IMG/VR virus record: IMGVR_UViG_3300036800_000147
Location: 1 to 39,614 of that record
DNA length: 39,614 nt
Reading direction: 5' to 3' (one strand)
Source of the DNA: a virus
Shown here in pieces: positions 8,510 to 31,795 of this stretch. The translations under genes and the position numbers were made by a program. Under the pieces are notes generated by a model. That model had not been told where the DNA came from, searched no databases, and saw only the letters and a list, made by a program, of their open reading frames with translations. Each line of letters starts with the position of its first letter. Position 1 is the stretch's first letter.

Positions 8510-8537
8510 GATATCCACACAATCGGCGGACTGTAAA
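8510..8537 (-). promoter_or_regulatory. minus-strand promoter, TTTACA-N16-GATATC
   Basis: On the minus strand the -35-like TTTACA (8537-8532) and the -10-like GATATC (8515-8510) are 16 bases apart, just upstream of the gene at 8482. It resembles the promoters at 23208, 24264 and 25205. It lies within 35 bases of the GTG start of the divergent ParB-methyltransferase gene (8541). Confidence 0.5.
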
Positions 8538-8540
8538 GAC

Positions 8541-9899
8541 GTGCAGATCGAAACCCGCACCATTGCATCGCTCCGTCTTTACCCCGGAAACGCACGCACC
8601 CATTCGGAAGAACAGGTCGCGCAGATCGCCGCGTCGATCACCGAGTTCGGATTCACAAACCCGGTTCTGATCGCGGAGGACGGCGAGATCATCGCTGGAC
8701 ATGGGCGCGTCATGGCGGCGCAGAGCCTGGGTCTGACCGAAGTTCCGACAATCGCCCTGGGCCACCTGACGGCCGATCAGCGCCGAGCCTACATGATCGC
8801 GGACAACAAACTCGCGCTCAACGCCGGATGGGACGAGGAGTTGCTGCGAGCCGAGCTAGAAGCGCTCGAAGCAGCCAACTTCGACCTTGGCGTCACCGGC
8901 TTCTCCGACGAGGAACTGCGCGTCCTCATGGCCGTGCCGAATGAACGCGACCCTGACGAGACGCCGCCAGTCGAGGCCGAGGCGGTCTCGCGGATCGGTG
9001 ATGTCTGGCTGCTCGGCGAGCATCGGCTGATGTGCGGCGACTCAACGGGTGCGGATGATGTGGCGAGGCTGCTGGACGGCAAGCGCGCGGATTGTGTGTT
9101 CACGTCGCCGCCCTACGGCGTAGGCGTCGATTACGGCGCCACGTACAGCGACACGCTCGACAACCTGCGCGGCATGCTTCCGAAGATGGCGGCCTTGTGG
9201 ATAGACGCCGTGCAGCCGGGCGGCTTCGCAGTGGTGAACTTCGGCGATATCGTAGCCGGCGCGGTCGCGGGCGCAGAGCCGTGCGAATACCCGATGGCGC
9301 TAGAATACTGGGGACCATTCAGAGACGCGGGCTGGCGGCTTTGGTCGCGGCGCGTCTGGTGCAAACCGAACGCTCGCACTCACTCGCCGTGGGCTATTCA
9401 GTCCAATCGCGCCGCGTCTGACTGGGAACACGTTTGGACATGGAAAGCGCCCGGTCGCGCGGTGCTGGGTCGGGTCAATGGTGAGCACCAGAGCGCGAAC
9501 GGATGGTTCGACACGACATCCGAGCATGGCGTTGATCTCGGCAAAGACACGCATGGTGCTGGGATGGCTGTCGCGCTCCCCGTCAGGATGTTGGCGATCC
9601 ATGTGCGCGCAGGGCACGGCGTCCTGGAACCGTTCAGTGGAACCGGCACGACAATCACGGCGGCCGAGATGACGGGGCGGCGCTGCTACGCGATGGAGAT
9701 ATCGCCGCAGTACGTCGATGTCTCCGTCCGCCGCTGGGAGCAGTTCACCGGCCGCGAGGCGACGCTGGAGGCCGATGGCCGCACCTTCGCCGATGTGGCT
9801 GATGCAAGGATCGCCGAGAAGCGCCTAGCCGAGATCGCCGCAGACCCTATGACGCTGGTCTCTGGCGCTGAACTTGAACAACGGCTGGCTGCGCTATGA
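8541..9899 (+). CDS. ParB-domain/DNA methyltransferase fusion
   Basis: A 452-residue protein. Residues about 5-95 form a ParB/Srx-like domain (N-A-R-T-H, then IIAGHGRVMA, the phosphate-binding GHGR region). Residues about 150-400 form a beta-type methyltransferase: SPPYGVG (about 189-195, motif IV) and FSGTGTT (about 364-370, motif I). SPPY is often seen in N4-cytosine enzymes, but N6-adenine is possible. ParB-methylase fusions are common in phages and prophages. The start is a GTG with no strong ribosome site. It is the second methylase in the window. It is coupled to the small terminase by ATGA. Confidence 0.9.
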   Translation: MQIETRTIASLRLYPGNARTHSEEQVAQIAASITEFGFTNPVLIAEDGEIIAGHGRVMAAQSLGLTEVPTIALGHLTADQRRAYMIADNKLALNAGWDEELLRAELEALEAANFDLGVTGFSDEELRVLMAVPNERDPDETPPVEAEAVSRIGDVWLLGEHRLMCGDSTGADDVARLLDGKRADCVFTSPPYGVGVDYGATYSDTLDNLRGMLPKMAALWIDAVQPGGFAVVNFGDIVAGAVAGAEPCEYPMALEYWGPFRDAGWRLWSRRVWCKPNARTHSPWAIQSNRAASDWEHVWTWKAPGRAVLGRVNGEHQSANGWFDTTSEHGVDLGKDTHGAGMAVALPVRMLAIHVRAGHGVLEPFSGTGTTITAAEMTGRRCYAMEISPQYVDVSVRRWEQFTGREATLEADGRTFADVADARIAEKRLAEIAADPMTLVSGAELEQRLAAL

Positions 9900-10387
9900 G
9901 CGACTTGGGTCAACGCCGGCCGCAGCCGGAAGACATCCCTGGCATCCTGGACGACATTGCGAAGGGCTCGTCTTTACGCCAAGCTTGCATCGCGCGGGGC
10001 ATGCACGTCCCAAACACGTATGACTTCCTCAAGGACGATCCGCGCCTATGGGAAAAATACACACGCGCGAAGGAGCTACGCAGCGGCGTCCAAGAGGATC
10101 AGGCATTGGCGCTCACCTTGGCGGCGGCGACCGGTCGCAAGTTCGAGGGCCAGACGATCAAGCCCGAGGGCGTGCGCGTCCACCTCGACGCGGTTAAGTG
10201 GTCAGCAGGACGGATGGCCGACAAGACGGTGAATGTGAAGCACTCTGGCAATGTCGGAATCTTTGACCCCTCCACGCTCTCAGACGAGCGACTCGCTGCG
10301 CTCCAATCCGCTTTGGGAGACGCTCCCGCCGGCGGACGAGCTGCGGAGGATAGTGAACGCGGAGATATCGAAGAGGGCGGCGAATAA
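9896..10387 (+). CDS. terminase small subunit
   Basis: A 163-residue protein with an N-terminal helix-turn-helix (residues about 12-50, including G-S-S-L-R-Q-A-C and T-Y-D-F-L) that fits the DNA-recognition domain of small terminases. A helical oligomerisation part follows, then an acidic, Gly-rich tail. Its place directly before the large terminase and its size agree. It would bind the packaging site and control the large subunit. Its 3' 137 bases overlap the start assigned to the large subunit. Confidence 0.75.
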   Translation: MSDLGQRRPQPEDIPGILDDIAKGSSLRQACIARGMHVPNTYDFLKDDPRLWEKYTRAKELRSGVQEDQALALTLAAATGRKFEGQTIKPEGVRVHLDAVKWSAGRMADKTVNVKHSGNVGIFDPSTLSDERLAALQSALGDAPAGGRAAEDSERGDIEEGGE

Positions 10388-19333: not shown

Positions 19334-19362
19334 GCGTTAGCCGCGATACCGCGATTTGACAA
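19334..19362 (-). promoter_or_regulatory. minus-strand promoter, TTGTCA-N17-TAACGC
   Basis: On the minus strand TTGTCA (19362-19357) and TAACGC (19339-19334) are 17 bases apart, 30 bases before the first gene of the leftward operon. The spacer holds a GGTATC close to the GATATC box seen at other minus-strand promoters. Confidence 0.5.
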
Positions 19363-19520: not shown

Positions 19521-21062
19521 ATGAGCACCCTTCAGATCAACGGCTCGGAGGTTGGCAACGCCCTTCAGTCGATCCTGATGGCGCCGGATATCACGCCTGG
19601 CGAGTCGGTCTCTTATGAGTTGTGTAAAATACTGCTAAGCTGGCATCCGCTCGGCCAGAAGTTGACTGAGACGCCGATCACCATTGCGCAAAGTCTGCCG
19701 CGAAAGATCACCGTCCCGAAGGGGCCGGAAGAGCGCCTGGTCGAGGTCTTCAATCAGGAATGGGAGAAGCTCGGCGCGGACGAGCACATCCACAACTTCG
19801 GCAAGCTGGCGCGGACCTATGGCGTCTCGACCATCGCGCTGCTGAACGCCGAGACGGCCCAGAACGTCGCGGTCGACTACGACTCGATCTGGAACGCGGA
19901 GATCGCCTTCAACGTCTTCGACCCGCTGAACACGGCGGGCTCGCTGGTGCTGAACCAGCAGCCCAACGCGATGGACTTCCAGAAGATCGCCGGCAAGGGC
20001 GTCCAGGTCCAGGGCCAGAACTACCACCCCTCGCGCACCGTCACGCTGATGCACGAGAAGCCGATCTACATCGAGTACACGACCAGCGCGTTCGGCTACG
20101 TGGGCCGCTCGGTGTTCCAGCGCCCGCTCTATCCGCTGAAGAGCTACATCCTCAGCATGATCACGGACGACATGGTGGCGCTGAAGGCTGGCGTGCTGAT
20201 CGCCAAGCAGAAGCAGCCGGGATCGCCGATGGACGCGATCATGGGCGCCATCGCCGGCCAGAAGCGCAACATGGTCAAGGAGGCGAAGACCTTCAACGTC
20301 ATCTCGATTGGGACCGAGGAAGAGATCGCGGCAATCGATCTGACGAACGTCGCGCAGTCGATGACGGCGGCGCGCAAGAACATCATCGACAACATCGCCA
20401 CGGCGGCCGACATGCCGGCGATCATCATCAATCAGGAGACCTTCGCGGCCGGCTTCGGTGAGGGGACCGAGGACGCCCGCCGAGTCGTCCAGTTCGTCAA
20501 CGGGATCAGGGTTTGGCTGCGTCCCGCCTATGCCTTCTTCGATGAAATCTGCATGCGCCGGGCTTGGAATCCCGAGTTCTACAAGCTGATCCAGAAGGAG
20601 TACCCGGAAGAGTACGGCGCGATGAAGTACGAGGTCGCGCTGTTCACGTGGAAGAACAGCTTCGCGGCCGTGTGGCCATCTCTGATTGAGGAACCGCCGA
20701 GCGAAACCGTGAAGGTCGCTGACGTGAAATTCAAGGCGGCGATTGCCGTCGTGGAGGTCCTCGCACCGCTGCTCGATCCAGATAACAAGGCCCGGCTCGT
20801 GCAATGGGTCGCCGACAACTTCAATGAAAACAAGGACCTGTTCACGTCGCCGCTCATCCTGGACTACGAGGCCCTCGCCGCTTACGTGCCGCCGGTGATG
20901 GCGGCTGGGGGAGAGGACGACGGAGACCAGCCCGTGAAACCGGCGCCGCCGTTCAGCGGCAGGGACTCGGCGCTAAGCAAGTACGACCGCGCGGTGGGCG
21001 AACTGATCAGCCTCGCCGCAGAGCGCAAGCAGTTGCAGCGACGGCGAGATCACGATGCCTGA
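19521..21062 (+). CDS. portal protein, DUF1073-like
   Basis: A 513-residue protein with the features of the DUF1073 portal group: S-Y-E-L-C-K near residue 35 followed by W-H-P-L-G-Q-K, a central portal fold, the Y-P-L-K-S-Y segment, A-D-M-P-A-I-I-I near residue 300, and a low-complexity Gly/Asp/Pro tail near 460. The portal is the dodecameric ring through which DNA enters the head. Pfam relatives of this family include portal proteins fused to anti-CBASS Acb1-like domains; I see no such HxT domain here. Codons at 19612-19650 (TTG, TGT, ATA, CTA) are unlike the rest of the gene. Confidence 0.85.
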   Translation: MSTLQINGSEVGNALQSILMAPDITPGESVSYELCKILLSWHPLGQKLTETPITIAQSLPRKITVPKGPEERLVEVFNQEWEKLGADEHIHNFGKLARTYGVSTIALLNAETAQNVAVDYDSIWNAEIAFNVFDPLNTAGSLVLNQQPNAMDFQKIAGKGVQVQGQNYHPSRTVTLMHEKPIYIEYTTSAFGYVGRSVFQRPLYPLKSYILSMITDDMVALKAGVLIAKQKQPGSPMDAIMGAIAGQKRNMVKEAKTFNVISIGTEEEIAAIDLTNVAQSMTAARKNIIDNIATAADMPAIIINQETFAAGFGEGTEDARRVVQFVNGIRVWLRPAYAFFDEICMRRAWNPEFYKLIQKEYPEEYGAMKYEVALFTWKNSFAAVWPSLIEEPPSETVKVADVKFKAAIAVVEVLAPLLDPDNKARLVQWVADNFNENKDLFTSPLILDYEALAAYVPPVMAAGGEDDGDQPVKPAPPFSGRDSALSKYDRAVGELISLAAERKQLQRRRDHDA

Positions 21063-21273: not shown

Positions 21274-22442
21274 CCCTGAACGAAGAAAGGCTGAGCGCCG
21301 CCGCTGCACGGGTCGACGGCCTCAAGCGCCGCCTGGGCGACCTGGAGCGCAGGGACGCCATGACCCGCCTGGACGCTGTGACGCGGGCCATGTTCGCCGA
21401 TGCGGTGCGCGACGACGGGGAGCCGGGCGTCCGCAGCGACAATGACTTCAGGGAAGAGGATCACCCTCGCGATGAGGGCGGCAAGTTCTCCACCGGATCG
21501 GGCGGCGCATCGCTTGGGCACGGGCTGAGCGAGAAGAGCACCAGCGCGGAGCACTACGGCGGCAGCGGCAAGGGCTTCGACGCCTACGCCTACGCCCGGG
21601 CGCACGATGACCCGACCGCATCGGCCGACAAGATCATGGCCTCGCTCTCGCCCGAACAGCGCGCCGAAATCGCCGAACTGCACAAGCAGATCGAGAAGCG
21701 CGGGCAGACCATCGACAAGCACCGCGATGAGAACAAGGCCTATCCGCCCTCGCGCCGGCAGATGCACGAGGACATCCTGTTCCGTGGCCGGATGGGTCGC
21801 GACCCGGACAATCCGGGCGAGCGCAAGTTCTATCCGGGCATCCTCTCGGCCGAGAACCTGGAGCGAGCAAAGCCGGCGGCCGGCGAGAAGCCCACCTTCA
21901 CGATCCTGGGCGGCCGGGGCGGATCGGGCAAGTCGCAGTTCAAGGGCGAGGTCTACGACGAAGACAAGGCCATCGTGCTCGACGCTGACGTGATCAAGCA
22001 CATGATCGAAGAGTTCGAGGGCTGGAACGCCAATGAGGTTCACGAAGAGTCGTCCGACGTGCTCGAAGAGGCGATGCGGGCCGCGCGAGCCCGAGGCCTG
22101 AACGTGGTGTTCGACGCCACCATGAAATCGAGCCCCGCCGCGCTGGAGAAGGTCGCGGAGTTCAAGAAGGCCGGCTACCGGATGGAGGCGCACTACATGC
22201 ACCTTCCGCGTCAAGTAGCGGCCAAGCGGGCGGTTGAGCGCTACTTCAGTCCGTCGAAGAAGGACCCGAAGGCGAGGGGGCGATACGTGCCGGCCCACGT
22301 CGTGCTAGGCAACCAGCTCAACGAGAAGACCTTCAACGAGGTCCGCCAGCACGCGGATCGCTGGAGCTTCAGAGACAACAACGTCGAGCGAGGCCAGAAG
22401 GCGCGGCTCGTTGCCAGAGGCGGCTATGACGAAGAAGACTGA
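21270..22442 (+). CDS. zeta-toxin-like ATPase with phage head-type N-terminus
   Basis: A 390-residue protein. Residues about 45-85 carry F-R-E-E-D-H-P-R-D-E-G-G-K-F-S-T, a short motif (HPRDExGrFs) common in phage head and structural proteins. From about residue 210 a P-loop kinase domain begins: L-G-G-R-G-G-S-G-K-S, then L-D-A-D-V-I-K, then V-F-D-A-T-M-K-S, and a basic R-x-x-x-A-V-E-R-Y lid. This is the zeta toxin/PezT-type fold, which phosphorylates UDP-sugars or other small molecules. No epsilon-like antitoxin was recognised. It is encoded in the structural operon right after the portal, so it may be carried in the virion. Confidence 0.75.
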   Translation: MTLNEERLSAAAARVDGLKRRLGDLERRDAMTRLDAVTRAMFADAVRDDGEPGVRSDNDFREEDHPRDEGGKFSTGSGGASLGHGLSEKSTSAEHYGGSGKGFDAYAYARAHDDPTASADKIMASLSPEQRAEIAELHKQIEKRGQTIDKHRDENKAYPPSRRQMHEDILFRGRMGRDPDNPGERKFYPGILSAENLERAKPAAGEKPTFTILGGRGGSGKSQFKGEVYDEDKAIVLDADVIKHMIEEFEGWNANEVHEESSDVLEEAMRAARARGLNVVFDATMKSSPAALEKVAEFKKAGYRMEAHYMHLPRQVAAKRAVERYFSPSKKDPKARGRYVPAHVVLGNQLNEKTFNEVRQHADRWSFRDNNVERGQKARLVARGGYDEED

Positions 22443-22599
22443 GACCACCGAGAAGCTGATCCAGGATCACCCGGAGCGGTTCGATTACGGGGACTTCACG
22501 GCGTCGGCGGATCACGACTCCGCCTACATGGACAAGTGCCTCGCCGAGACGCTGAAGCGCATGGACGAGGCGTTCAAGGCGTCTTCAGAACGCGCTTGA
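22426..22599 (+). CDS. small protein, plus-strand member of an inverted paralogue pair
   Basis: The start at ATG 22426 overlaps the zeta-like gene by 17 bases; an in-frame start at 22411 is also possible. The 57-residue product has the core P-E-R-F-D-Y-G-D-F-T, S-A-D-H-D, Y-M-D-K, and a charged C-terminal helix. The minus-strand gene at 22574-22744 encodes the same core. No known domain. Confidence 0.7.
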   Translation: MTKKTETTEKLIQDHPERFDYGDFTASADHDSAYMDKCLAETLKRMDEAFKASSERA

Positions 22600-22744
22600 T
22601 CCGGGCGGTGCTCTCGGCCACGCGCTCGTCCATGTACTTGCTGTCGTGGTCGGCGCTCCTGGTGAAGTCGCCGAAGTCGAAGCGCTCCGGATACCGGCGC
22701 ATCATCTCATCGATGGTCATGGCCTTGTCAGGCCGGCGCTTCAT
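22574..22744 (-). CDS. small protein, minus-strand member of an inverted paralogue pair
   Basis: The 56-residue product (ATG 22744, TGA ending at 22574) has P-E-R-F-D-F-G-D-F-T, S-A-D-H-D, Y-M-D-E, aligned without gaps to the plus-strand protein at 22426-22599. GAAGGAG lies upstream of its start, inside the end of the preceding gene. The two genes meet tail to tail and share 26 bases. It is the last gene of the long leftward block. Confidence 0.75.
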   Translation of the reverse strand: MKRRPDKAMTIDEMMRRYPERFDFGDFTRSADHDSKYMDERVAESTARIKRVLKTP

Positions 22745-22910
22745 GGTGGGTCTCCTTCTGTTGCAGTCCTAGGTCGATAAGTTCGGCGATCAGCGACAGC
22801 CGGCTCTGAGCGTCGCGCGCAGCGATGGCGTCGACGCGCTCCAGCCTGTCGGGCTCGAAGCGGACGATGACCGGCTTCAGCTTGATCGCGCGGGGTTTGC
22901 GGCCGGCCAT
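22728..22910 (-). CDS. small ribbon-helix-helix or Arc-like protein (60 aa)
   Basis: After a basic start (G-R-K-P-R-A-I-K-L-K) there is a beta strand (V-I-V-R-F-E-P) and two helices (L-E-R-V-D-A-I-A-A-R-D, then S-L-I-A-E-L-I-D-L-G-L), the layout of a ribbon-helix-helix repressor. The start is ATGA-coupled to the gene upstream. It could be the regulator that binds the repeated boxes in this block, which is inference only. Confidence 0.7.
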   Translation of the reverse strand: MAGRKPRAIKLKPVIVRFEPDRLERVDAIAARDAQSRLSLIAELIDLGLQQKETHHEAPA

Positions 22911-23188
22911 CAGTCGTCCTCGTTGTTTGTGACGGTGAGCGGGAATACCAAGTTACCGAAGGGTTGTTCGAAGTCCCACTTGAAAACGACAGGGACGCCT
23001 TCGGGGAGATCGCCGTCATCGAAAACCGCAATAGCGGTCAGCGAGGCGACGTCAGCCCAGAGGATGCGCGTTGCTGGCTCGCCACAGCGGCAGCAGACCC
23101 GCGTCGTGCGGGCGGCGCAGTAGGCGACCGGCTCGGCGTTTCGGACGTCGAAGCAGTCCTTGCACCAGAAGCGCAGATCGTCGGTCAT
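22910..23188 (-). CDS. hypothetical protein with zinc-like cysteines (92 aa)
   Basis: The ATG at 23188 has GGGAGAT eight bases upstream and lies 20 bases after the promoter at 23208. The N-terminal 45 residues hold W-C-K-D-C-F, Y-C-A-A and C-C-R-C-G-E-P, a zinc-ribbon-like set. The C-terminal half is beta-rich. A much longer frame in the same phase (to 23422) would cross the promoter and is rejected. Confidence 0.7.
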   Translation of the reverse strand: MTDDLRFWCKDCFDVRNAEPVAYCAARTTRVCCRCGEPATRILWADVASLTAIAVFDDGDLPEGVPVVFKWDFEQPFGNLVFPLTVTNNEDD

Positions 23189-23207
23189 GTGCTGATCTCC
23201 CAACTGA

Positions 23208-23236
23208 GATATCGTGTTTTCGAGCGCGATTGTCAA
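23208..23236 (-). promoter_or_regulatory. minus-strand promoter, TTGACA-N17-GATATC
   Basis: A perfect -35 TTGACA (23236-23231) and GATATC (23213-23208) are 17 bases apart, with the start codon 20 bases downstream. Directly upstream is a hairpin (23255-23278) that would end the transcript of the genes before it. Confidence 0.75.
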
Positions 23237-23254
23237 ATGCTGGCGTTCAATGAT

Positions 23255-23278
23255 CCCGCCCCCACGATGGAGGGCGGG
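23255..23278 (-). terminator. hairpin, possible terminator of the upstream leftward genes
   Basis: CCCGCCC (23255-23261) pairs with GGGCGGG (23272-23278) over seven GC pairs with a ten-base loop. There is no T-run, only ATCATT on the minus strand, so its strength is unclear. It lies between a leftward stop (23290) and the promoter at 23236-23208. Confidence 0.45.
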
Positions 23279-23289
23279 AGGGTTGAGCG

Positions 23290-23406
23290 TCAGGCCGCCA
23301 TCTTCAGGACTTTGCCGCCGATCTTCTCGATCTCGACACGCTCGTCCTGATAGTCGATCCCGCGAGCGTAGGCGGTGATCGCGGTGGAGGCGTCCCAGAG
23401 GGTCAG
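23290..23406 (-). CDS. small protein like the C-terminal end of DUF932 (38 aa)
   Basis: The frame is open upstream, but the only coupled start is a CTG at 23406 that overlaps the DUF3560 stop (CTGA). The product T-L-W-D-A-S-T-A-I-T-A-Y-A-R, then R-V-E-I-E-K-I-G-G-K-V-L, resembles the last part of DUF932 proteins, where a T-x-W-D-x-x-x-A-V-T segment and an A-G-K-L-like end are typical. A GTG about 17 codons further up gives a longer product that would overlap DUF3560. It may be a surviving end of a larger gene. Confidence 0.4.
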   Translation of the reverse strand: MTLWDASTAITAYARGIDYQDERVEIEKIGGKVLKMAA

Positions 23407-24239
23407 GCTTGCGGTTGGGCATCCTTCCAGGCTTGCTCCACCGACTCGGCGGCCCACTTGGCGCCGTTGCTCAGGTGGCGCTGCCAGAAGCCGACGCTGG
23501 GAGCCCACCGAAAGCCGCGAGCCTTGAGCACCGCGATCACCGAAGCCGGTGGCTTGCCGGGGAAGCCGAGTTGCAGCCGGTTGGCCTCCAGGTTCTCGAT
23601 GATCTCCAGGCCGGCGACGCTCTCCTTGACGATGATCGGTTCAGGGGCGGCTGCGCGCTGGGCTGCGATCCGTTCCAAGTAGGCGATCCGATCCTTGATC
23701 CGGCTCATGTTGGCCGACCGGTTGCTGAGCGAGTAGGACGGGATGCCGATGGGTCCGCCGGGGTAGGGCGGTTCGAGCAGCTTGCCGGCCAATCCCGCGC
23801 TGAACCCGAGGGCGACGATGGCGGCGATCTGCGCCTCGCGTCCGGCTTTGGCGTTCTTGCGGATCGCGACGTTGATCGCCTTCTCCTTGGCGTGCTGATC
23901 TTCGAGCTTCGCCAGTTCGGCCCTCAGCTTGGCGACAGCGTCCGGATCGTCTGAACTGATCCCTCCGGAGCCGACCGAGGCCGCACGACTGGCCGCTTCG
24001 TTGGCGGCCTTGTTGAGCGCGATGCCCTTGTCCAATGCGCGATTGGCGCGAGCGATGACGGCGCGGTGGCGGCCTTCGCTGTGGTGTCCGACCAAGATCG
24101 GCTGCCCGAACGGGATGCCCGTGGCCGCCTCGCTCAGGTCCGCGCGCTTGAAAGCGCTGCTCGCCTCGCCCCGGAGCCGGTCGGCGCGCGCTTCGAGGCG
24201 TTCTCTGCGCGCCTCCTGCTTGGCCTCGTATGCGTTCAT
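23403..24239 (-). CDS. DUF3560-like protein
   Basis: A 278-residue protein. The N-terminus (N-A-Y-E-A-K-Q-E-A-R-R-E-R, coiled coil, then G-Q-P-I-L-V-G-H-H-S-E-G-R-H-R) is the hallmark of DUF3560, found in plasmids and phages. A long charged helix and a C-terminal region with G-F-R-W-A-P-S-V-G-F-W-Q-R-H follow. Start ATG 24239 has AAGGAGAG upstream; the TTG at 24260 in the same frame is not preferred. It follows the promoter at 24264-24292. Function unknown in the family. Confidence 0.75.
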   Translation of the reverse strand: MNAYEAKQEARRERLEARADRLRGEASSAFKRADLSEAATGIPFGQPILVGHHSEGRHRAVIARANRALDKGIALNKAANEAASRAASVGSGGISSDDPDAVAKLRAELAKLEDQHAKEKAINVAIRKNAKAGREAQIAAIVALGFSAGLAGKLLEPPYPGGPIGIPSYSLSNRSANMSRIKDRIAYLERIAAQRAAAPEPIIVKESVAGLEIIENLEANRLQLGFPGKPPASVIAVLKARGFRWAPSVGFWQRHLSNGAKWAAESVEQAWKDAQPQA

Positions 24240-24263
24240 TCGGTCTCTCCTTCTGCTCAACTA

Positions 24264-24292
24264 GATATCGCGCTTTGCGGGATCGGTGTCAA
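24264..24292 (-). promoter_or_regulatory. minus-strand promoter, TTGACA-N17-GATATC, with upstream box
   Basis: TTGACA (24292-24287) and GATATC (24269-24264) are 17 bases apart and end 25 bases before the DUF3560 start. A second GATATC lies at 24299-24304, exactly 35 bases from the first. The same 35-base spacing is found at the promoter 25205. Confidence 0.75.
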
Positions 24293-24309
24293 TAGGCCGA
24301 TATCGCTAT

Positions 24310-24717
24310 TTATCCTTCGATCCGGTCGTGGATCGCGACGGCGCCATAGAACTTGGCCTGAGCGCCGGGCATGCCGGCCTTTGCCCAGCTATCGGCGAGG
24401 GCCGATTCGCAGATTTCGCGGAACCGGCTATCCGAGCTGTGCAGGAAGTTGCCGCCCATCATCGAGAACTTGACTGGCTGGCCGATGATGGGGATGACGG
24501 GAACGGCCTTGATCGTGCCGGGCGCGTTGCCGGGGACGATGGCGACCAGCGGCCTGCCGTGCGAGCCGTGAGGCCCCTCGGCGTTGACGACGGCCAGTTC
24601 GTCGGCCTGGGAGCTGATCCCGTTGTTCGTGCAGTCGCTGAGCACGTGGGCCGGAAAGTCGCCTTCCGGGTTTTCGACCCTGTAGGACGTGGCGCGAAGA
24701 ACCGAAGCGATGATCAA
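24310..24717 (-). CDS. hypothetical protein (135 aa)
   Basis: Start TTG 24717 is preceded by AAAGGAGACC; the upstream gene's TGA overlaps it (TTGA). The product is beta-rich with H-V-L-S-D-C-T-N, P-G-N-A-P-G-T-I-K and S-M-M-G-G-N-F. No family recognised. It ends near the promoter of the DUF3560 gene. Confidence 0.6.
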   Translation of the reverse strand: MIIASVLRATSYRVENPEGDFPAHVLSDCTNNGISSQADELAVVNAEGPHGSHGRPLVAIVPGNAPGTIKAVPVIPIIGQPVKFSMMGGNFLHSSDSRFREICESALADSWAKAGMPGAQAKFYGAVAIHDRIEG

Positions 24718-24926
24718 GGTAGGTCTCCTTTCGAGAGGTTGATGCGGCGGTCGATCTCCGCCTTGGCCCGCGCGAGCTGGTATTCAGGATCGCGACGGAA
24801 ATCGATGGTGGCGACTCGCTCGCTGTGAGTGCCGCTGGCGCTGACCCGGTAGACGTAGAGCCAGCCCTTCGTGTGCCGGCGGATGTGGTAGTCGCCCTTT
24901 TCGTAGAGGATCGCGGCCTCGTTCAT
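24714..24926 (-). CDS. hypothetical protein (70 aa)
   Basis: ATG 24926 is ATGA-coupled to the gene upstream. It is a small alpha/beta protein with H-I-R-R-H-T-K-G-W-L-Y-V-Y-R-V and a charged C-terminal helix. No known motif. The longer frame to 25199 crosses another gene and is not used. Confidence 0.6.
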   Translation of the reverse strand: MNEAAILYEKGDYHIRRHTKGWLYVYRVSASGTHSERVATIDFRRDPEYQLARAKAEIDRRINLSKGDLP

Positions 24927-25168
24927 GCGGCGATGTCCAGGCCAAGGGCGCTGTTGAGCTTGCCGGGGAACCAGGGGCGCTCCGGAGCATCGGCGGCGCG
25001 CTCGATCTTGGTGACGCCGAAAGCATCGAAGTGATGCCATTCGCTGATCTTGATCGCGGCCTCGCGAGCGGCGGGGACTTGTGCTTCGGCTTCCGCCTTG
25101 CTCTCGAACGGACCCGCGAGCCATGCCACGCGCTGGGCGCGGATCATGGTGACGTAGAACTTCATCAT
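24923..25168 (-). CDS. hypothetical protein (81 aa)
   Basis: First gene after the promoter at 25205-25233. The start is ATG 25168 or 25165 (M-M), with GGAGACCCC upstream. It has M-K-F-Y-V-T-M-I-R, then W-L-A-G-P-F-E-S-K-A-E-A-E, a small fold common in phage proteins of unknown use. It heads an operon of three genes ending at 24310. Confidence 0.65.
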   Translation of the reverse strand: MMKFYVTMIRAQRVAWLAGPFESKAEAEAQVPAAREAAIKISEWHHFDAFGVTKIERAADAPERPWFPGKLNSALGLDIAA

Positions 25169-25204
25169 GTGAGGGGTCTCCAGCGGCTCCCTGCCGCAAA
25201 GCGA

Positions 25205-25233
25205 GATATCGCAGTTTAGAGCGGCCGGGTCAA
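25205..25233 (-). promoter_or_regulatory. minus-strand promoter, TTGACC-N17-GATATC, with upstream box
   Basis: TTGACC (25233-25228) and GATATC (25210-25205) are 17 bases apart. A second GATATC at 25240-25245 lies 35 bases upstream, as at 24264. It drives the genes at 25168 and beyond. Confidence 0.75.
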
Positions 25234-25259
25234 TAGCTAGATATCGAGAAATCGGCCGA

Positions 25260-25508
25260 TCAGGCGTTTTTCTTTTCGATCCAGGTCTCACGCTCTTCGG
25301 CGCGATCTTCTGCCGCCGCGAGCGCCTTTAGCCGCATGCTGATCGTGCCTTGTGAGCGCAGCGTTCCGAGAGCGGACACGTGAGCGGCGATCTCGGTTGT
25401 GCCCATGCCGGCGATCCGCAGTTCGGTCATTAGGGCGTCTTCGGCCAGCGTAAACCGGCGCACGGTCTGCGGCTTGCCGAGACGGACGCGGTCGTAGGAA
25501 GGCCTCAC
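25260..25508 (-). CDS. helix-turn-helix-like protein (82 aa)
   Basis: The GTG at 25508 overlaps the previous stop (GTGA). The middle (L-R-I-A-G-M-G-T-T-E-I-A-A-H-V, then G-T-I-S-M-R-L-K-A-L) looks like a helix-turn-helix of the kind in small phage regulators. It ends near the upstream box of the promoter at 25205. A longer frame from 25601 is rejected as it runs over two other genes. Confidence 0.6.
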   Translation of the reverse strand: MRPSYDRVRLGKPQTVRRFTLAEDALMTELRIAGMGTTEIAAHVSALGTLRSQGTISMRLKALAAAEDRAEERETWIEKKNA

Positions 25509-25624
25509 TCCCAGTCCTCCCGATCCTCGTAGTCCCATCCTTCGAGCGTCCAGACCCAGCGGCGCCAGAAGCCCGTGCCGTCCGACCGTGTTACGCGCCA
25601 CCAGCCGTGGGCGGGGCGGTTCAT
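25505..25624 (-). CDS. 39-residue Trp-rich peptide
   Basis: ATG 25624 is ATGA-coupled to the gene upstream, and the TGA at 25507-25505 overlaps the next GTG. The product has seven Trp (G-W-W-R, F-W-R-R-W-V-W, G-W-D-Y, D-W-E) and an acidic end. Unknown function. It is too short for most annotation. Confidence 0.55.
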   Translation of the reverse strand: MNRPAHGWWRVTRSDGTGFWRRWVWTLEGWDYEDREDWE

Positions 25625-25839
25625 GCGCCCCTCCGCCCGAACGTCTCAGCGACCTGCCTGCCCCGGTAGGACTCGAACACCGGGAAGGCCATGCAGAGCC
25701 TCCAGCGGTTGGTGAGCCGCGCGGCTGCGGCGTTGGCGGTTTCCTCGCTGAGGAAGACCTTGCCGGCCATGACCCGAAGCTGGTCTCGCTTGGGGCCGCG
25801 CATCTCGCGGATCAGCCATGCGACGGGGGGCTGGGTCAT
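25621..25839 (-). CDS. hypothetical protein (72 aa)
   Basis: ATG 25839 has GGAGG eight to nine bases upstream. A small mixed protein with K-V-F-L-S-E-E-T-A-N-A-A-A-A-R-L and F-E-S-Y-R-G-R-Q-V. It is coupled to the 39-residue peptide by ATGA. The upstream 25-residue membrane peptide stops inside its start. Confidence 0.6.
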   Translation of the reverse strand: MTQPPVAWLIREMRGPKRDQLRVMAGKVFLSEETANAAAARLTNRWRLCMAFPVFESYRGRQVAETFGRRGA

Positions 25840-25913
25840 GCGAACCACCTCCTGAAGGTGAGATACCCGGCGACCGCAAAGACGACGCCGAAGATGAGGG
25901 ATGCGAGAATCAC
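25836..25913 (-). CDS. 25-residue membrane peptide
   Basis: GTG start at 25913 overlapping the upstream stop (GTGA), TGA at 25838-25836 overlapping the next ATG. The product is I-L-A-S-L-I-F-G-V-V-F-A-V-A-G-Y-L-T-F then basic-aromatic: one membrane helix. The double coupling is the support. Confidence 0.5.
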   Translation of the reverse strand: MILASLIFGVVFAVAGYLTFRRWFA

Positions 25914-26107
25914 TGGCCTGCGTCCTTGATCGCGACCCGAAGCTGTTCGGCGAGCCGCTTCTCGTGGCCGGCGAACTCGCACCCTTCTTCCAAAATCGCG
26001 CGGCAGAGCCAGTCGGCGCACATGCGCACACGCTCGCCGGCCTGCCACTTGCGATCTGCCTCGGCCGCCATCTGGCGGAACGTCGAAGCGCTGATGAGGT
26101 CTTTCAT
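25910..26107 (-). CDS. hypothetical protein (65 aa)
   Basis: ATG 26107 has AAGGGAGATC nine bases upstream. It is helical, with K-W-Q-A-G-E-R-V-R-M-C-A-D-W-L-C-R-A. No family recognised. It is the first of a coupled run that continues through 25836, 25621, 25505 and 25260. Confidence 0.6.
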   Translation of the reverse strand: MKDLISASTFRQMAAEADRKWQAGERVRMCADWLCRAILEEGCEFAGHEKRLAEQLRVAIKDAGQ

Positions 26108-26135
26108 AGTGATCTCCCTTTGCTGGCACTCAATG

Positions 26136-26159
26136 GGCTCGGCTTCCAAGGTCCGAGCC
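26136..26159 (-). terminator. intergenic hairpin
   Basis: GGCTCGG (26136-26142) and CCGAGCC (26153-26159) form a seven-pair stem with a ten-base loop in the gap between two leftward genes. There is no T-run. It could attenuate transcription or protect the RNA. No gene is seen in 26108-26190. Confidence 0.3.
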
Positions 26160-26190
26160 GGTTGAGGGTCGGCGCGATGTAGAGCGGCGA

Positions 26191-26388
26191 CTAGTGGTCG
26201 TAGCTCCAGAACCCGTCGGTATCCCAAACCGCGATATCTACGTGAAGGCTTTCGCGCTCGTCCGGGTCGTAGTGGGAGCGCACATAATCCTGTGCGTCCA
26301 TCCAATGCGGGAAGTTAGAGGCGATGACGCATTCGCCCTCATAACCGGCGTTCTCGATTACTGCCCACCTGGCGGGTTTGGCTTGCAT
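26191..26388 (-). CDS. hypothetical protein (65 aa)
   Basis: The ATG at 26388 is preceded by GGAGGC. The product has W-A-V-I-E-N-A-G-Y-E-G-E-C-V-I-A-S-N-F-P-H-W, then D-P-D-E-R-E-S-L-H-V-D-I. A small alpha/beta protein. It contains a GCGATATC in its coding sequence near 26230, probably by chance. No family recognised. Confidence 0.65.
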   Translation of the reverse strand: MQAKPARWAVIENAGYEGECVIASNFPHWMDAQDYVRSHYDPDERESLHVDIAVWDTDGFWSYDH

Positions 26389-26407
26389 GGCGTGCCTCCG
26401 GTCGTTC

Positions 26408-26743
26408 TCAGGCCGATCCCAGCCTGACGATGAAATCCCCCTCGACCTCCAGCGCGGGATCGACGTCGTCAACGTCGTCCCCCATCTGTTCGAAGTAGGA
26501 GAAGAAGCCTTCGGGCGCTGGCCCGTCTGGGAAGAGCCGCCAGCAGCTGGCGCCCCTGCACCCAAGGACGTCGACCCAGTGCCGTGCGAGAGCGCCCGCA
26601 TGGCCCTGGTCGTCGGCGTGCAGAGCGTGCCACTCGCCCCGCGCGTTCTCGACAACCACGAAGAAGTGGATGCCGGCCGCGTAGGCTGCGGCGGATTGGT
26701 CCTTGATCTCGGACCAGAGCGAAGGGGAAGAGAGATGGGCCAT
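26408..26743 (-). CDS. hypothetical protein (111 aa), first of the leftward block
   Basis: The ATG at 26743 has AGGAGG seven bases upstream. A mixed alpha/beta protein with acidic C-terminal part (G-D-D-V-D-D-V-D-P-A-L). A promoter with extra boxes lies 84 bases upstream (26827-26855), so this should be the first gene of the leftward block. The 145 bases 26744-26888 hold only regulatory sequence. Confidence 0.65.
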   Translation of the reverse strand: MAHLSSPSLWSEIKDQSAAAYAAGIHFFVVVENARGEWHALHADDQGHAGALARHWVDVLGCRGASCWRLFPDGPAPEGFFSYFEQMGDDVDDVDPALEVEGDFIVRLGSA

Positions 26744-26826
26744 GGTGAGGCCTCCTGGGCAGGTCGCGCGCGGGATTGCGGCGGCGAGCCCTTTCTGTTG
26801 TGATCTCTCTGTGTGGTGACGCATTA

Positions 26827-26855
26827 TCGATAGCAAATCGCGATATCGTCGTCAA
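26827..26855 (-). promoter_or_regulatory. minus-strand promoter, TTGACG-N17-TATCGA, with GATATC boxes
   Basis: TTGACG (26855-26850) and TATCGA (26832-26827) are 17 bases apart on the minus strand. A GATATC lies within the spacer (26842-26847) and another at 26867-26872, next to the start of the divergent head gene at 26889. Box positions inside and above a promoter suggest an operator. The plus-strand promoter for 26889 is not clear. Confidence 0.65.
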
Positions 26856-26888
26856 CGGTAAAGCGCGATATCCCGAAAGAAAAGTGCG

Positions 26889-27710
26889 ATGGCCGAGTCG
26901 TTCTATGACGTGCTCACAGAATCGGTGGCGTGGTTCGCCGAGCATGGCTACACCTCCGCCGAGGAACTGGCCGCGTGGCAGCGCCGCCTCCGCGAAGCAG
27001 CCGCCGCCTCGTTCATCCCCGAGTCCGATATGCTCGACCAGCTTCGTGCGGCGCTCGCGGCGACCTATCGACGGCTAGTCGACCAAGGCCAGATTCTCCA
27101 GCACCACCCCGGCATCCAGGCCTTCACCTATGAGCGGATCAAGCCGCATCTTCGGGCGGAGTTGGATCGCCGGATTTTCGCGTCGGCCGACCTGATCAAG
27201 CTCAATCGCCAGCAGACAATCGAGGACACGATTCGGCGGTTCAGCGGGTGGGTGTCGAGCGTGCCGGCGAGTGGGTCGCGGGTCGTAGATCGCCGGGAGG
27301 AAAAGGCGCGGATCAGGAAGCCGCTGGCGAGCGCGCCCTATGTTGAGCGGCGAGTCCTCATCGATCAGAATGCCAAACTACAGTCAGCCATCCACGACAT
27401 TCTCGCCAAGGACGGCGGAGCAATCGCGGGGCGCTGGCGTGCTGTTCACCGGCCGGGCTACGATAACCGGCCGGAACACTTGGCGCGGGATGGCAAGGTC
27501 TTCGCGATCCGCGATTGCTGGGCGCTCGAAAAGGGTCTGATGAACAAAGGGCCGAACGGCTACACGGACGAGATCGAGCAGCCGGCCGAGTTCGTCTACT
27601 GCTCGTGCAGGTACGTCTACTACTACGGACTCGCGCAGCTTCCGGCCGATATGTTGACGGCGCGCGGGCGTGAAGCGCTAGATGTTGCGAAAACGAAAGC
27701 CCTTGCGTAG
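26889..27710 (+). CDS. Mu F-like head morphogenesis protein
   Basis: A 273-residue protein. The N-terminal two-thirds is long charged helix. The last third contains W-R-A-V-H-R-P-G-Y-D-N-R-P-E-H-L-A-R-D-G-K-V-F and later P-A-E-F-V-Y-C-S-C-R-Y-V, matching the C-terminal motif of the phage Mu F-like minor head proteins (pattern R-P-E-H-x-x-x-D-G-x-x). It should act in capsid assembly beside the portal. Here it is separated from the portal by the leftward block of about 4.3 kb. Confidence 0.75.
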   Translation: MAESFYDVLTESVAWFAEHGYTSAEELAAWQRRLREAAAASFIPESDMLDQLRAALAATYRRLVDQGQILQHHPGIQAFTYERIKPHLRAELDRRIFASADLIKLNRQQTIEDTIRRFSGWVSSVPASGSRVVDRREEKARIRKPLASAPYVERRVLIDQNAKLQSAIHDILAKDGGAIAGRWRAVHRPGYDNRPEHLARDGKVFAIRDCWALEKGLMNKGPNGYTDEIEQPAEFVYCSCRYVYYYGLAQLPADMLTARGREALDVAKTKALA

Positions 27711-28212: not shown

Positions 28213-28571
28213 TGCCGCTGGCCAAGGGTTCGGGCCGCGAAACCATCGGCAAGAACATTGCCGAGATGGAGGCGAGCGGCCATCCGCGCGCCCAGAGCAT
28301 CGCGGCGGCGCTGAACACGGCTCGCGGCGACGCCGGCCCGCACGTTCTGGACGGCAAGACCAACAACGCCCGCATGATCGCGGTGGCCGAACGCAAGGGC
28401 TCGGATTGGGCCGGATCGGCGACGGCCTCGATGCTGGCGCAGAACGCGGCGCATGACGCCGACACCTATCGCTCGGTGCTCGACTCGTGCGTTGACCGGC
28501 TCGATGGGCTCACCCGGCGTCTCGACGCTTGTGCGCGTAAAGACGCCGAGGAAGCGCTGGACTGCGGCTAG
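28212..28571 (+). CDS. hypothetical phage protein (119 aa)
   Basis: The start overlaps the Rz1 stop (TAATG). The N-terminus (P-L-A-K-G-S-G-R-E-T-I-G-K-N-I-A-E-M) resembles a small family of phage proteins where the motif is followed by a helix with A-I-A-A-A-L-N-T-A-R. The middle has W-A-G-S-A-T-A-S. The C-terminal part is a helix with D-G-L-T-R-R-L-D-A-C-A-R-K-D, like the acidic-basic coil of the scaffold gene at 31864. No known function. Confidence 0.6.
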   Translation: MPLAKGSGRETIGKNIAEMEASGHPRAQSIAAALNTARGDAGPHVLDGKTNNARMIAVAERKGSDWAGSATASMLAQNAAHDADTYRSVLDSCVDRLDGLTRRLDACARKDAEEALDCG

Positions 28572-28897
28572 TTCCGCAGCTTGTTGAGGTCGAGGATCGG
28601 GCCGTTCGGCCCCTGCCGGAGCGCCTGACCGGCATTGGCGATTGACGCGGTGCGCTGCGCGGCGGCGAACAGGTCCGGCTTCATCACCGCGAGCGCGAGG
28701 ATCGCCTGCTGCGGGGTCTTGTTCTGCGGATCAGCTTCGGCGTCGGTTTCCCAGCGAGCCATCGCGCACATGTACATCTCGCCCTGGACGACGATGGGGC
28801 CAGCCGGCGCGGCGGGGAAGTAAGCCCACCCGATGAGGGTTGGCGTCGTATCGGTGAGGGCTTTCAGTTCTTCGATTCTGGTGAGGATGAGGGCCAC
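28568..28897 (-). CDS. hypothetical protein (109 aa)
   Basis: A GTG start at 28897 is preceded by GGGAGAA. The product is helical at the N-terminus and has W-A-Y-F-P-A-A-P-A-G-P-I-V-V-Q-G-E-M-Y-M. Its stop overlaps the gene at 28212-28571 by four bases (convergent). A perfect GCGATATCGC lies just upstream. A lone minus-strand gene in the late plus-strand region. Confidence 0.6.
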   Translation of the reverse strand: MALILTRIEELKALTDTTPTLIGWAYFPAAPAGPIVVQGEMYMCAMARWETDAEADPQNKTPQQAILALAVMKPDLFAAAQRTASIANAGQALRQGPNGPILDLNKLRN

Positions 28898-28912: not shown

Positions 28913-28922
28913 GCGATATCGC
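28913..28922. promoter_or_regulatory. perfect palindrome GCGATATCGC
   Basis: This ten-base palindrome lies 16 bases upstream of the minus-strand gene at 28897. It matches the -10 and box element of the leftward promoters. No good -35 is visible at the expected distance, so it may be an operator or a weak promoter. Confidence 0.4.
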
Positions 28923-28966: not shown

Positions 28967-29887
28967 ATGATCCGCGCGGCGCACCGCTATTACGTTTACC
29001 TGCTGGTCCGCCCGTGGAACGAGGTTCCCTGCTACGTCGGAAAGGGTCAGGGACGACGGGTCTACGAGCACTTTTCTGCCGGCGAAGCGCATCCCAACAG
29101 GCATCTCGCGAACGTACTCCGGAAGGCAGGGGGAAGCCTACCATTCGTCTTGCTGCACACTACTGATGACGAGGACGAGGCCTTCCTTTTCGAGATCATG
29201 GCCATAGCGTTCTTCGGGCGATCCGACTGCGACCTTGGCCCCCTGTGCAATGCCACAGACGGCGGCGAGGGTCCGTCCGGCGCAAGATACTCGCGCACAG
29301 CAGAAAATCGCCGCAAGGCGTCCACGGCTCAAAAGGCGTTCCGAGCGGCACCGGAAAACAAAGAACGGATCGCCGAAGGCCTAAGGCGGGGATGGGCAGG
29401 CGACGACGAGCGCCGCGCTCGGGCGCGAGAGACTATAGCGGCGTGGAACGCTACCCCAGAGGCAAAGGCGATCCTCGCGGCTCGAAACGCGGCAGCGATA
29501 GCGCGGCGGCTGGAGCGCGAAGAAGAGCGCCGCGTCACGAAGGCCGCCGCGCCGCCGAGAAAAGTTAGCAACGTGAGCCTCGATAAGAAGCGGCAGGCGC
29601 TGCGTGATTACTGGGCTTCCCCTGCCGGACTGGCGCGAAAAGCGAAGCCTAGGGTAAAGAAGGGTTACGCTGGTGTCGTGGCCGCCAACAAGAGACGCAT
29701 ACACGATGCGGCGGCGCGGGCGCGTTCATCTGAAATTGGTCGCCGCGTTTCTAGTGACCCAGAGCACATGCGGCGCAGGAGAGAAGGCTATCTTGCCTGG
29801 GCCGCAGCAAACCCCGATGAGGTAGCTCGCCACCGAAATCCGAGACGTGGCTCAAGCGGCAGGTTTATAAAACGAGCGACGCTATGA
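28967..29887 (+). CDS. GIY-YIG homing endonuclease
   Basis: A 306-residue protein. Near the N-terminus it has Y-Y-V-Y-L-L-V, then C-Y-V-G-K-G-Q-G-R-R-V-Y-E-H, a GIY-YIG-type core (here Y-V-Y and Y-V-G) with the catalytic Arg. The remainder is a long Arg/Ala-rich region with repeated T/S-A-x-N-R-R-K and K-K-R-Q-A-L motifs like the NUMOD repeats of phage homing proteins. It ends four bases into the next gene (ATGA). Its first codons (M-I-R-A-A) match those of the gene that follows. Confidence 0.85.
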   Translation: MIRAAHRYYVYLLVRPWNEVPCYVGKGQGRRVYEHFSAGEAHPNRHLANVLRKAGGSLPFVLLHTTDDEDEAFLFEIMAIAFFGRSDCDLGPLCNATDGGEGPSGARYSRTAENRRKASTAQKAFRAAPENKERIAEGLRRGWAGDDERRARARETIAAWNATPEAKAILAARNAAAIARRLEREEERRVTKAAAPPRKVSNVSLDKKRQALRDYWASPAGLARKAKPRVKKGYAGVVAANKRRIHDAAARARSSEIGRRVSSDPEHMRRRREGYLAWAAANPDEVARHRNPRRGSSGRFIKRATL

Positions 29888-31032
29888 TCCGGGCCGCCGG
29901 TATAATGTTTGTTGCTCGTGACGGATCGGCGCTGTTTCTCAAAAGAAGCGCCAACAGCGACTCGCATCCGAACGAGTGGGCCTTCGCAGGCGGCCACATC
30001 GAGGACGGCGAAACCGCTGAGGAAGCGGCCATCCGCGAGTGCGAGGAAGAAACGGGTTATACGGTTGCTGCGGCCGACATCCGGCTGCATACCCGTAGCC
30101 TTAACAATGCGGAGGTCGGTAGCGGCCCTGTACCGGCCGCACCGCTGGACCAGGAAATCGCCGAACTGGCGCCTGACACGCCGCCGGGCGAGGCAGTGGT
30201 CGTGCCGGGCGAAGTCGTGGACTTCACGACGTTCATCTGCCGCGTCAAGGAGACCTTCGCTCCGAAGCTGAACGAGGAGTCAGCAGGCTACGCCTGGGCG
30301 CCGGTCGACATGCCGCCAGAGCCGCTGCATCCGGGTTGCAGGATCGCGCTCGACCGCCTGTCGATGAACGAACTGGACGTGGCCCGCGCGATGCGCGACG
30401 GCCGCCTCACCAGCCCCCAGCGCTACATGAACGTGACGCTCTGGGCGATGCGGATCACGGGCACGGGGCGGGCTTATCGCTCCGAACTCAAAGAGCACGT
30501 CTGGCGCGATCCCTCGATCTACATGAACGATGAGTTTCTGGCCCGGTGTAACGGCCTGCCAGTCATCATGGAGCACCCCGAAAAGCGGGCGATCCTGAAC
30601 TCGAAGGAGTTCAATGACCGCATCATCGGCACGGTGTTCCTACCCTACCTGCGGCCTGACATCGAAGAGGTCTGGGGTATCGTCAAAATCTGGGACGATG
30701 CGTCCAACGAGATGTTCGCGAGCCGACAGCTCAGCACGTCGCCGAGTGTGATCCTGGGCACGGCCGAGAACAATCTGAAGCTCAAGAAGGAAGACGGTAG
30801 CACTCTACTTATCGAGGGCGATCCGACGCTCGCTGACCACCTCGCGGCTTGCGCCCTCGGAACTTGGGATAAGGACGGCCCCCCGGTTGGTATCGATACG
30901 CCAGCCGAGAATGATGATGGCGTTCGCCACGACTCTCGGCCACCGCGACACGATTTGAGAATCGACGTGATCGGTCATCGCCTTCAAGGGCTCAACCTTC
31001 GGCTGGCTGCGGCCCGTCTTCGGATGGGGTAA
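29884..31032 (+). CDS. Nudix hydrolase fused to DUF2213-like phage protein
   Basis: 382 residues. Residues about 5-130 form a Nudix domain with the box G-G-H-I-E-D-G-E-T-A-E-E-A-A-I-R-E-C-E-E (then E-T-G-Y), residues about 37-59, all key Glu residues present. From about 195 a DUF2213-like domain follows (R-I-T-G-T-G-R-A-Y-R-S-E-L, G-L-P-V-I-M-E-H-P, I-I-G-T-V-F-L-P-Y-L), seen in phage head proteins as a possible maturation protease or scaffold. The end (last 25 residues, Arg-rich) looks like out-of-frame sequence and overlaps the end of the minus-strand HNH gene by 41 bases. Confidence 0.8.
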   Translation: MIRAAGIMFVARDGSALFLKRSANSDSHPNEWAFAGGHIEDGETAEEAAIRECEEETGYTVAAADIRLHTRSLNNAEVGSGPVPAAPLDQEIAELAPDTPPGEAVVVPGEVVDFTTFICRVKETFAPKLNEESAGYAWAPVDMPPEPLHPGCRIALDRLSMNELDVARAMRDGRLTSPQRYMNVTLWAMRITGTGRAYRSELKEHVWRDPSIYMNDEFLARCNGLPVIMEHPEKRAILNSKEFNDRIIGTVFLPYLRPDIEEVWGIVKIWDDASNEMFASRQLSTSPSVILGTAENNLKLKKEDGSTLLIEGDPTLADHLAACALGTWDKDGPPVGIDTPAENDDGVRHDSRPPRHDLRIDVIGHRLQGLNLRLAAARLRMG

Positions 31033-31795
31033 ATCTGGCGTTCTTCCGCAGGTTATCGGTCGCCCAGAGCGGCTGAAGGTTCGTGTAGTGGAAGGCGATG
31101 CAGCGCTCCGCTTCCTGGGTCATGTCGAACGACACGAGCGGTCGGATGTGGTCGATATGCCACCCGTCAATCGTATGGTTGTCCCAAGACATGCCCGGCA
31201 GGAACTGCGCTTCTAGATGCGCGCGAACCTCCGGGACTGTGCAGCCCAGATAGACGAGCGCAGACTTCGATTTGGTGAGGCCCCGGATAGCCGCCTTGAT
31301 GCGGCAGCGAAGCACCGAGCGAAGATGGCGCTGCACCGTGGAAATCCGATTGGCGCGCGCCTTCTCGCGAGCGAGTTCGATATTCGCGTTTCGCCGACGT
31401 TTTGCGCTAGCTGCGATCTTGGCGCGTCCCTCGGGTTGCGCTTTGTAAGCAGCGCCGCGATCACTCATGCACTTCACGCAAAATCCTGTGCGGGTGTACC
31501 GGTCGGATAGATGACCATGGACGCAGGGGACGCCGGAGAAGTAGCGAACGTTGCCTCGTGCTCTGGCCGCCACACGTGAACTGACTGACGGCATGGCGGA
31601 TCGCATCGCAGCTCGCGCCGCCATGCCGGGCTGACGTTTTATCTTCCGTGAGGCTAGCTCCTTCACGTGCAAACACTTGATGCACGTGTAGTTCACCACG
31701 AGCTTTTCGGAGATATGCCCTTTGGGGCAAATCAGGCCGTCGAAATACCGTTTGAGCCCACGGGCGTGGGCTTCCTTCCGTGAAATCAGTTCCAT
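30992..31795 (-). CDS. HNH homing endonuclease on the opposite strand
   Basis: About 267 residues, from ATG 31795 (M-E-L-I-S-R-K-E-A); ATG 31813 in the same frame is possible. Two zinc-ribbon-like segments (C-P-K-G-H...C-I-K-C and C-V-H-G-H...C-V-K-C) are followed by a basic linker, then the HNH core G-W-H-I-D-H-I-R-P-L, F-H-Y-T-N-L-Q-P-L-W, D-N-L-R-K-N. It is typical of phage homing nucleases. It separates the Nudix-DUF2213 gene from the scaffold-like gene. Confidence 0.85.
   Translation of the reverse strand: MELISRKEAHARGLKRYFDGLICPKGHISEKLVVNYTCIKCLHVKELASRKIKRQPGMAARAAMRSAMPSVSSRVAARARGNVRYFSGVPCVHGHLSDRYTRTGFCVKCMSDRGAAYKAQPEGRAKIAASAKRRRNANIELAREKARANRISTVQRHLRSVLRCRIKAAIRGLTKSKSALVYLGCTVPEVRAHLEAQFLPGMSWDNHTIDGWHIDHIRPLVSFDMTQEAERCIAFHYTNLQPLWATDNLRKNARFTPSEDGPQPAEG

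Follow-up and report, generated by a model that had tools for sequence, protein, structure and literature searches.

How might accessory genes that run head-on against the structural operon of a phage be switched as a group? The question is raised by virus record IMGVR_UViG_3300036800_000147, the whole of which (39,614 bases; hereafter the window) was scanned and in which several leftward genes are preceded by similar promoters built around the hexamer GATATC. An earlier note, made from the letters of the sequence, had read these sites as one leftward set in which GATATC serves both as the -10 element and as a possible operator. The motif, its positions and the design found in relatives support this reading in outline, although the conserved core is longer than GATATC. 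With a probability of roughly 0.65, we favour the interpretation that the sites are one set of RpoD promoters of leftward accessory genes under a dispersed operator.

The earlier note had proposed a scan of both strands for TTGACN-N16–18-GATATC. In the window this pattern has three matches, all on the minus strand (23208–23236, 24264–24292 and 25205–25233), against 0.08 expected as the mean of 100 shuffles, none of which gave three; since the window is the entire virus record, the count holds record-wide. These are the three leftward TTGACM-N17-GATATC sites described at the outset, and all the coordinates and spacings in that description proved correct on re-reading of the sequence, including the GATATC pairs exactly 35 base pairs (bp) apart (24264/24299 and 25205/25240) and the related forms at 8510 and 19334. 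The form at 26827 is likewise present, but its two extra boxes do not strictly flank it as had been thought: one (26842) lies within the spacer and the other (26867) upstream. GATATC by itself occurs 21 times in the window, against 6.0 expected; 12 of the 21 copies are intragenic and, the one at 26226 excepted, lack the AAA flank. Two further sites, a GGTATC variant at 19345 within the 19334 promoter and a box at 28915 ahead of leftward gene 28897, are added in the following list.

8510–8537, minus strand: TTTACA-N16-GATATC, a putative promoter ahead of leftward genes 8482 and 8243 that also stands 26 nucleotides (nt) from rightward gene 8541, upstream of it.
19334–19362, minus strand: putative promoter TTGTCA-N17-TAACGC, before leftward genes starting at 19304.
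19345–19357: variant box AAATCGCGGTATC, in the spacer of the putative 19334 promoter.
23208–23236, minus strand: promoter P23208, TTGACA-N17-GATATC, whose -10 coincides with box AAAACACGATATC; its GATATC lies 20 nt ahead of the ATG at 23188.
From 23188, minus strand: genes behind P23208, open reading frames (ORFs) 22910, 22728 (ribbon-helix-helix, RHH) and 22574.
24264–24292, minus strand: promoter P24264, TTGACA-N17-GATATC, with box AAAGCGCGATATC on the -10; 25 nt upstream of the ATG at 24239 of the DUF3560 gene (23403–24239).
24299–24311, minus strand: box AAATAGCGATATC, upstream of P24264 and separated from its -10 box by 35 bp.
25198–25210, plus strand: overlapping opposite box AAAGCGAGATATC at P25205.
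25205–25233, minus strand: promoter P25205, TTGACC-N17-GATATC, with box AAACTGCGATATC; 37 nt upstream of the ATG at 25168, preceding genes 25168 to 24310.
25240–25245, no strand assigned: upstream GATATC box with degenerate flanks, 35 bp from the -10 box of P25205.
26226–26238, plus strand: exact box AAACCGCGATATC, inside leftward gene 26191–26388.
26827–26872, minus strand: divergent region with TTGACG-N17-TATCGA, between gene 26743 (minus) and MuF-like gene 26889 (plus).
26835–26847, read on the plus strand: box AAATCGCGATATC, within the spacer of the 26827 promoter.
26860–26872, read on the plus strand: box AAAGCGCGATATC, upstream of the 26827 promoter.
28915–28920, no strand assigned: palindrome AGCGATATCGCT, 18 nt before leftward gene 28568–28897, without a clear -35.

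Alignment of the intergenic copies revealed a conserved 13-bp element, AAANNNCGATATC, that terminates in GATATC and the best form of which is AAANCGCGATATC; the hexamer first singled out is real, but too short to be the conserved unit. There are seven exact copies of AAANNNCGATATC (23208, 24264, 24299 and 25205 on the minus strand; 26226, 26835 and 26860 on the plus strand), against 0.04 expected. De novo motif discovery on 26 intergenic stretches (2973 bases, both strands, GATATC not supplied) ranked the box element first, with a log-likelihood ratio of 112 compared with 41–49 in shuffles. With a weight matrix for AAANCGCGATATC, nine sites score above 19 and the next site scores 13.7, a gap that arises partly by construction because eight of the nine served to build the matrix; the ninth overlaps 25205 in the opposite sense. 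The slightly stricter AAANNGCGATATC has three exact copies in a 6.9-Mb Rhizobiales metagenome-assembled genome, the window having seven of AAANNNCGATATC in 39.6 kb.

The placement of the box bears on whether it is an operator or simply a -10 hexamer. In the three perfect promoters it coincides with the -10; at 26827 and 19334 it lies within the spacer, and at 24299, 25240 and 26867 it lies upstream of the -35. Exact boxes are found in both orientations, and four of the seven have no TTGAC at promoter distance. The three perfect promoters agree fully (100%) in TTGAC, AAA and CGATATC, whereas identity in the 11-nt spacer is 30%, the chance level, so that the match between these promoters does not stem from recent duplication. 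A box retained while its spacer drifted, found in both orientations and shifting relative to the -35 and -10, is what an operator would look like; as far as sequence can tell, the box behaves as an operator doubling as the -10 in three promoters and not as a -10 alone.

The best-surviving alternative is that these are plain constitutive alphaproteobacterial sigma-70 promoters, GCGATATC being just a good GCTANAWC-like -10 copied along with its genes, with no operator involved. The Caulobacter RpoD consensus is TTGaCgS at -35 and GCTANAWC at -10 (PMC8144410), and GCGATATC fits the latter at seven of eight positions at 24264 and 25205 and less well at 23208; the host is probably an alphaproteobacterium. 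TTGAC is exact and stands at 17 bp at three sites, the spacing between the 7- and 8-mers is 14, and L126 has a single similar TTGACA-N17-GATATC before rightward genes. Such features would suit constitutive promoters, and the consensus fit counts equally for the RpoD promoters of the favoured reading. However, we regard this explanation as unlikely given the exact boxes that lack a TTGAC at -35 distance, the shifting placement of the boxes (some within the spacer, others ahead of the -35), their occurrence in both orientations, the AAA seven bases upstream, which is outside the sigma-70 consensus, and the retention of the box while the spacer drifted to chance identity. A consensus sigma-70 scan with TATAAT gave no promoters in the leftward block; in the whole window, TTGAC was never found paired with TATAAT.

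Relatives of the phage carry a comparable arrangement. Their version is a TTGAC-N17-TAAAG promoter with the spacer filled by a palindrome, GTTGAATWATTCAAC or GTGGAATWATTCCAC. Four copies of TTGACNNGGTNGAATWATTCNACTAAAGT are present in L071 (record G015, 50 kb), the portal of which is 49% identical to that of the window, and two in L067 (record G003, 52 kb); all six are leftward, and the sites read in these two loci lie a short distance ahead of ORFs. The putative L071 operator is GTTGAATTATTCAAC, and between L071 and L067 both arms of the dyad differ together (GTTGAA..TTCAAC versus GTGGAA..TTCCAC), as expected for an operator bound by a dimer. L071 copies sit before the portal gene and in the MuF–nudix interval. 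When the viral collection was searched for this promoter with the arms left free, nine stretches with 12 listed sites emerged, at all 12 of which the dyad is symmetric; some contigs were counted twice, L185 sharing its contig with L181, and L187 with L180. In seven of these stretches homologues of terL, portal and MuF adjoin the site. Where direction was readable (L179, L181–L184 and L186), the promoter runs against the structural genes at the portal–MuF or MuF–nudix border. A third version is found in L013 (record G006), with two leftward TTGACKATGTACTMCCCTTNNGG promoters in the MuF–nudix interval. The window has its sites at the same borders (19345 before portal, 26827–26872 at MuF and 28915 between MuF and nudix), and the portal–MuF gap of L035 likewise holds a leftward cassette, with no box ahead of it. 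The same type of switch at similar gene borders, written in other DNA words, suggests a general design. Of the four repeated promoters, those at L071 13760 and L162 1462 stand ahead of genes that are paralogues (MACLTNYT..), which suggests that promoter and gene were duplicated together there.

Several other searches were set aside. A double-box promoter scan of viral contigs gave 15 matches in two sequence families of low GC content, taken as chance coding matches; a pair-of-boxes scan gave 17, mostly taken as coding repeats, with L103 kept as a lead; and a scan for TTGAC-N11-AAANNGCGATATC gave nine, only L126 being promoter-like. The contexts in the GATATC-rich relatives L030, L068 and L047 resemble coding sequence (ORFs listed for L030 only), and the motif matches in L024 and L018 are AT-rich or of low complexity.

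L103, a 71-kb viral contig, bears on a further alternative, less probable than constitutive promoters, in which the boxes bind a partition-type or host RHH protein. There, two copies of the same box, AAATTGCGATATCGC, face each other as a perfect inverted repeat ahead of parA.

1532–1573 of L103: inverted pair GCGATATCGCAATTTCA...TGAAATTGCGATATCGC.

The gene downstream of the pair is ParA-like (PHROG 164, 4.8e-33; Pfam CbiA), but the small gene that follows it has no family match, no ParA was found among the window genes examined and the window sites are spread across separate promoters and do not form one array. Least probable is that GATATC is the target of a CcrM-like methyltransferase of the window that tunes the promoters, since, although two methyltransferase genes have CcrM-type matches (6360–7088 and 8541–9899) and a box (8510) stands 26 nt ahead of one of them, GATATC contains no GANTC and the conservation reaches AAA, past a 6-bp target. 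The second of these CcrM-type proteins is fused to a ParB-like N-terminal domain.

To return to a dispersed operator of leftward accessory genes, the boxes were compared with the direction of the genes that they precede. A rough gene call gave 45 rightward and 24 leftward genes, and a unit was counted as boxed if a GATATC-type box lay within about 100 nt upstream. Seven of the 12 leftward units are boxed (8482, 19304, 23188, 24239, 25168, 26743 and 28897), all with the extended motif except 8482 and 28897, and the four boxed rightward units (8541, 19373, 26889 and 28967) are each the divergent partner of a boxed leftward unit. The claim that no site precedes the rightward structural genes holds in part: the box at 26867 ends 17 nt ahead of the ATG of the rightward MuF-like gene 26889, but this gene is paired divergently with a leftward promoter.

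The leftward accessory genes, which interrupt the rightward structural genes in the opposite orientation, would then be transcribed by the main sigma factor of the host from promoters with a TTGAC -35, and a DNA-binding protein, most likely phage-encoded, would recognise AAANCGCGATATC at about 11 places and control the promoters jointly. At three promoters, where the box overlaps the -10 hexamer, the bound protein would exclude RNA polymerase; at two it would bind in the spacer, and at three boxes just upstream of the -35, beside a promoter that has its own box. The genes would be expected to stay repressed while late transcription lasts, or until a signal arrives. Two candidate regulators lie within the leftward block.

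22728–22910, minus strand: Arc-like RHH protein, candidate regulator downstream of P23208.
25260–25508, minus strand: 82-residue protein that resembles a helix-turn-helix (HTH) protein on visual inspection; it is the last ORF ahead of P25205 and a second candidate for the regulator.

The best guess within the window for the binder is 22728, which has weak Arc-like family matches (PHROG 4738, E 1.6e-5; PHROG 3431, E 0.0022) and no Pfam or NCBIfam match; as it is read from P23208, it could regulate its own synthesis. The earlier note had named both 22728 and 14453 as candidate RHH regulators: the former is indeed weakly Arc-like, the latter hardly matches such families (best PHROG E 0.0041), and nothing ties either of them to the box. 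Weak HTH matches were found for 15188 and no family match for 25260, the single-sequence model of which is helical with a pLDDT of 68. Single-sequence AlphaFold models of 22728 and 25260 were uninformative and PDB sequence searches gave nothing useful; a KorA-like reading of a small HTH-like protein in L158/L162 was dropped, its PHROG matches being weak (0.006–0.04). From the sequence we infer that a protein binds the box, that it represses and that it may be encoded by 22728.

Several observations weigh against a shared operator of leftward genes. The exact box of the window was not found in the relatives searched, save for one in-gene match in G002, and one exact box of the window (26226) is itself inside a gene. 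Five of the 12 leftward units have no box and the comparison of boxed leftward with boxed rightward units gives a Fisher p of 0.065, so that the strand bias by itself is suggestive and no proof. Sequence analysis tied no regulator to the box, and neither an HTH_3 repressor nor a tyrosine integrase was found in the window, G015, G003 or G006, records that may be partial; a classical (CI-like, lambda-type) lysogeny reading is therefore unsupported.

In carrying one box at several of its promoters, in numbers well beyond chance, the window resembles the dispersed operator regulons of phages in general. The L5 repressor of cluster A mycobacteriophages binds stoperators, 13-bp asymmetric sites with many dispersed copies at promoters and between genes, which correlate strikingly in orientation with transcription (PMC9283540). 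The window resembles them in having many copies of a 13-bp asymmetric site across one phage genome, but differs in sequence and in having boxes in both orientations relative to transcription; no L5-type repressor was identified in the window, no search having been aimed at that family. The start-associated sequences (SAS/ESAS) of cluster K are 13-bp repeats before many small-gene starts, sometimes with inverted repeats, and their versions differ among related phages (PMC3203893). A repeated 13-bp element near gene starts, with different versions in relatives, is common to both; unlike the start-codon-tied SAS (GGGATAGGAGCCC), however, the window motif has another sequence, overlaps the -10 or spacer of a sigma-70 promoter and lies 18–37 nt upstream of starts at single-promoter sites. 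Failing the orientation of stoperators and the sequence of SAS, the box is filed with neither. The C1 operators of phage P1 are also dispersed and asymmetric and overlap many promoters of one regulon, but their sequence differs, no C1 protein was identified here and a temperate state is unsupported. Phage morons, too, are accessory genes that have been inserted between structural genes and that bring a sigma-70 promoter of their own; the classic ones are single independent units, whereas many units of the window share one operator.

The genes behind the central promoters form a block of their own.

22574–26743, minus strand: leftward accessory cassette, 13 called ORFs between portal (19521–21062) and MuF (26889–27710).

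Gene 26889 is MuF-like (PHROG 324, head morphogenesis). Portal and MuF are neighbours in Pantoea phage PdC23; terL, portal, MuF and the capsid gene have relatives among 77 related loci searched, and the cassette proteins have none there. Judged by this comparison, the leftward block 22574–26743 is an insertion between portal and MuF. Its DUF3560 protein (23403–24239; Pfam 3.8e-27) is 45–48% identical to plasmid proteins, some annotated as ArdC, and has weak phage relatives; searches returned no close viral relatives of the DUF3560 and RHH proteins, and a DNA-level search among named phages found nothing similar to the window. At the cassette edge, the convergent overlapping small genes 22426–22599 (plus) and 22574–22744 (minus) are paralogues (ERFDYGDFTASADHDSAYMD and ERFDFGDFTRSADHDSKYMD), a pair that might mark how the cassette entered. 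Outside the cassette, terL (10353–12956, 867 residues) has an apparent intein, read from its sequence, that splits Walker A (GGAAGSGK|ALSLET...MVPTHN|S), and its relatives match only about 440 residues; near the nudix gene are an inserted homing-endonuclease-like gene (28967–29887, PHROG 314) and an endonuclease VII-like gene (30992–31795, PHROG 1035).

A wider proposal is tentative and, in our estimate, stands well below even odds. A phage family without a visible integrase or CI-type repressor may keep its reversed accessory genes at set borders within the structural operon (ahead of portal, portal–MuF and MuF–nudix) under a promoter–operator repeated genome-wide, the DNA word of which turns over while the layout persists, like the immunity specificities of temperate phages; the purpose may be to silence opposing transcription while the late genes are expressed or to exclude related phages. 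The shared promoter–operator set itself provides a concrete, testable rule for how accessory genes that lie head-on against a structural operon could be switched as a group, and the symmetric operator change between relatives indicates that the switch evolves like a repressor–operator pair. Accessory genes might then be found and grouped by promoter and not by protein, in a phage family in which most such proteins are unannotated.

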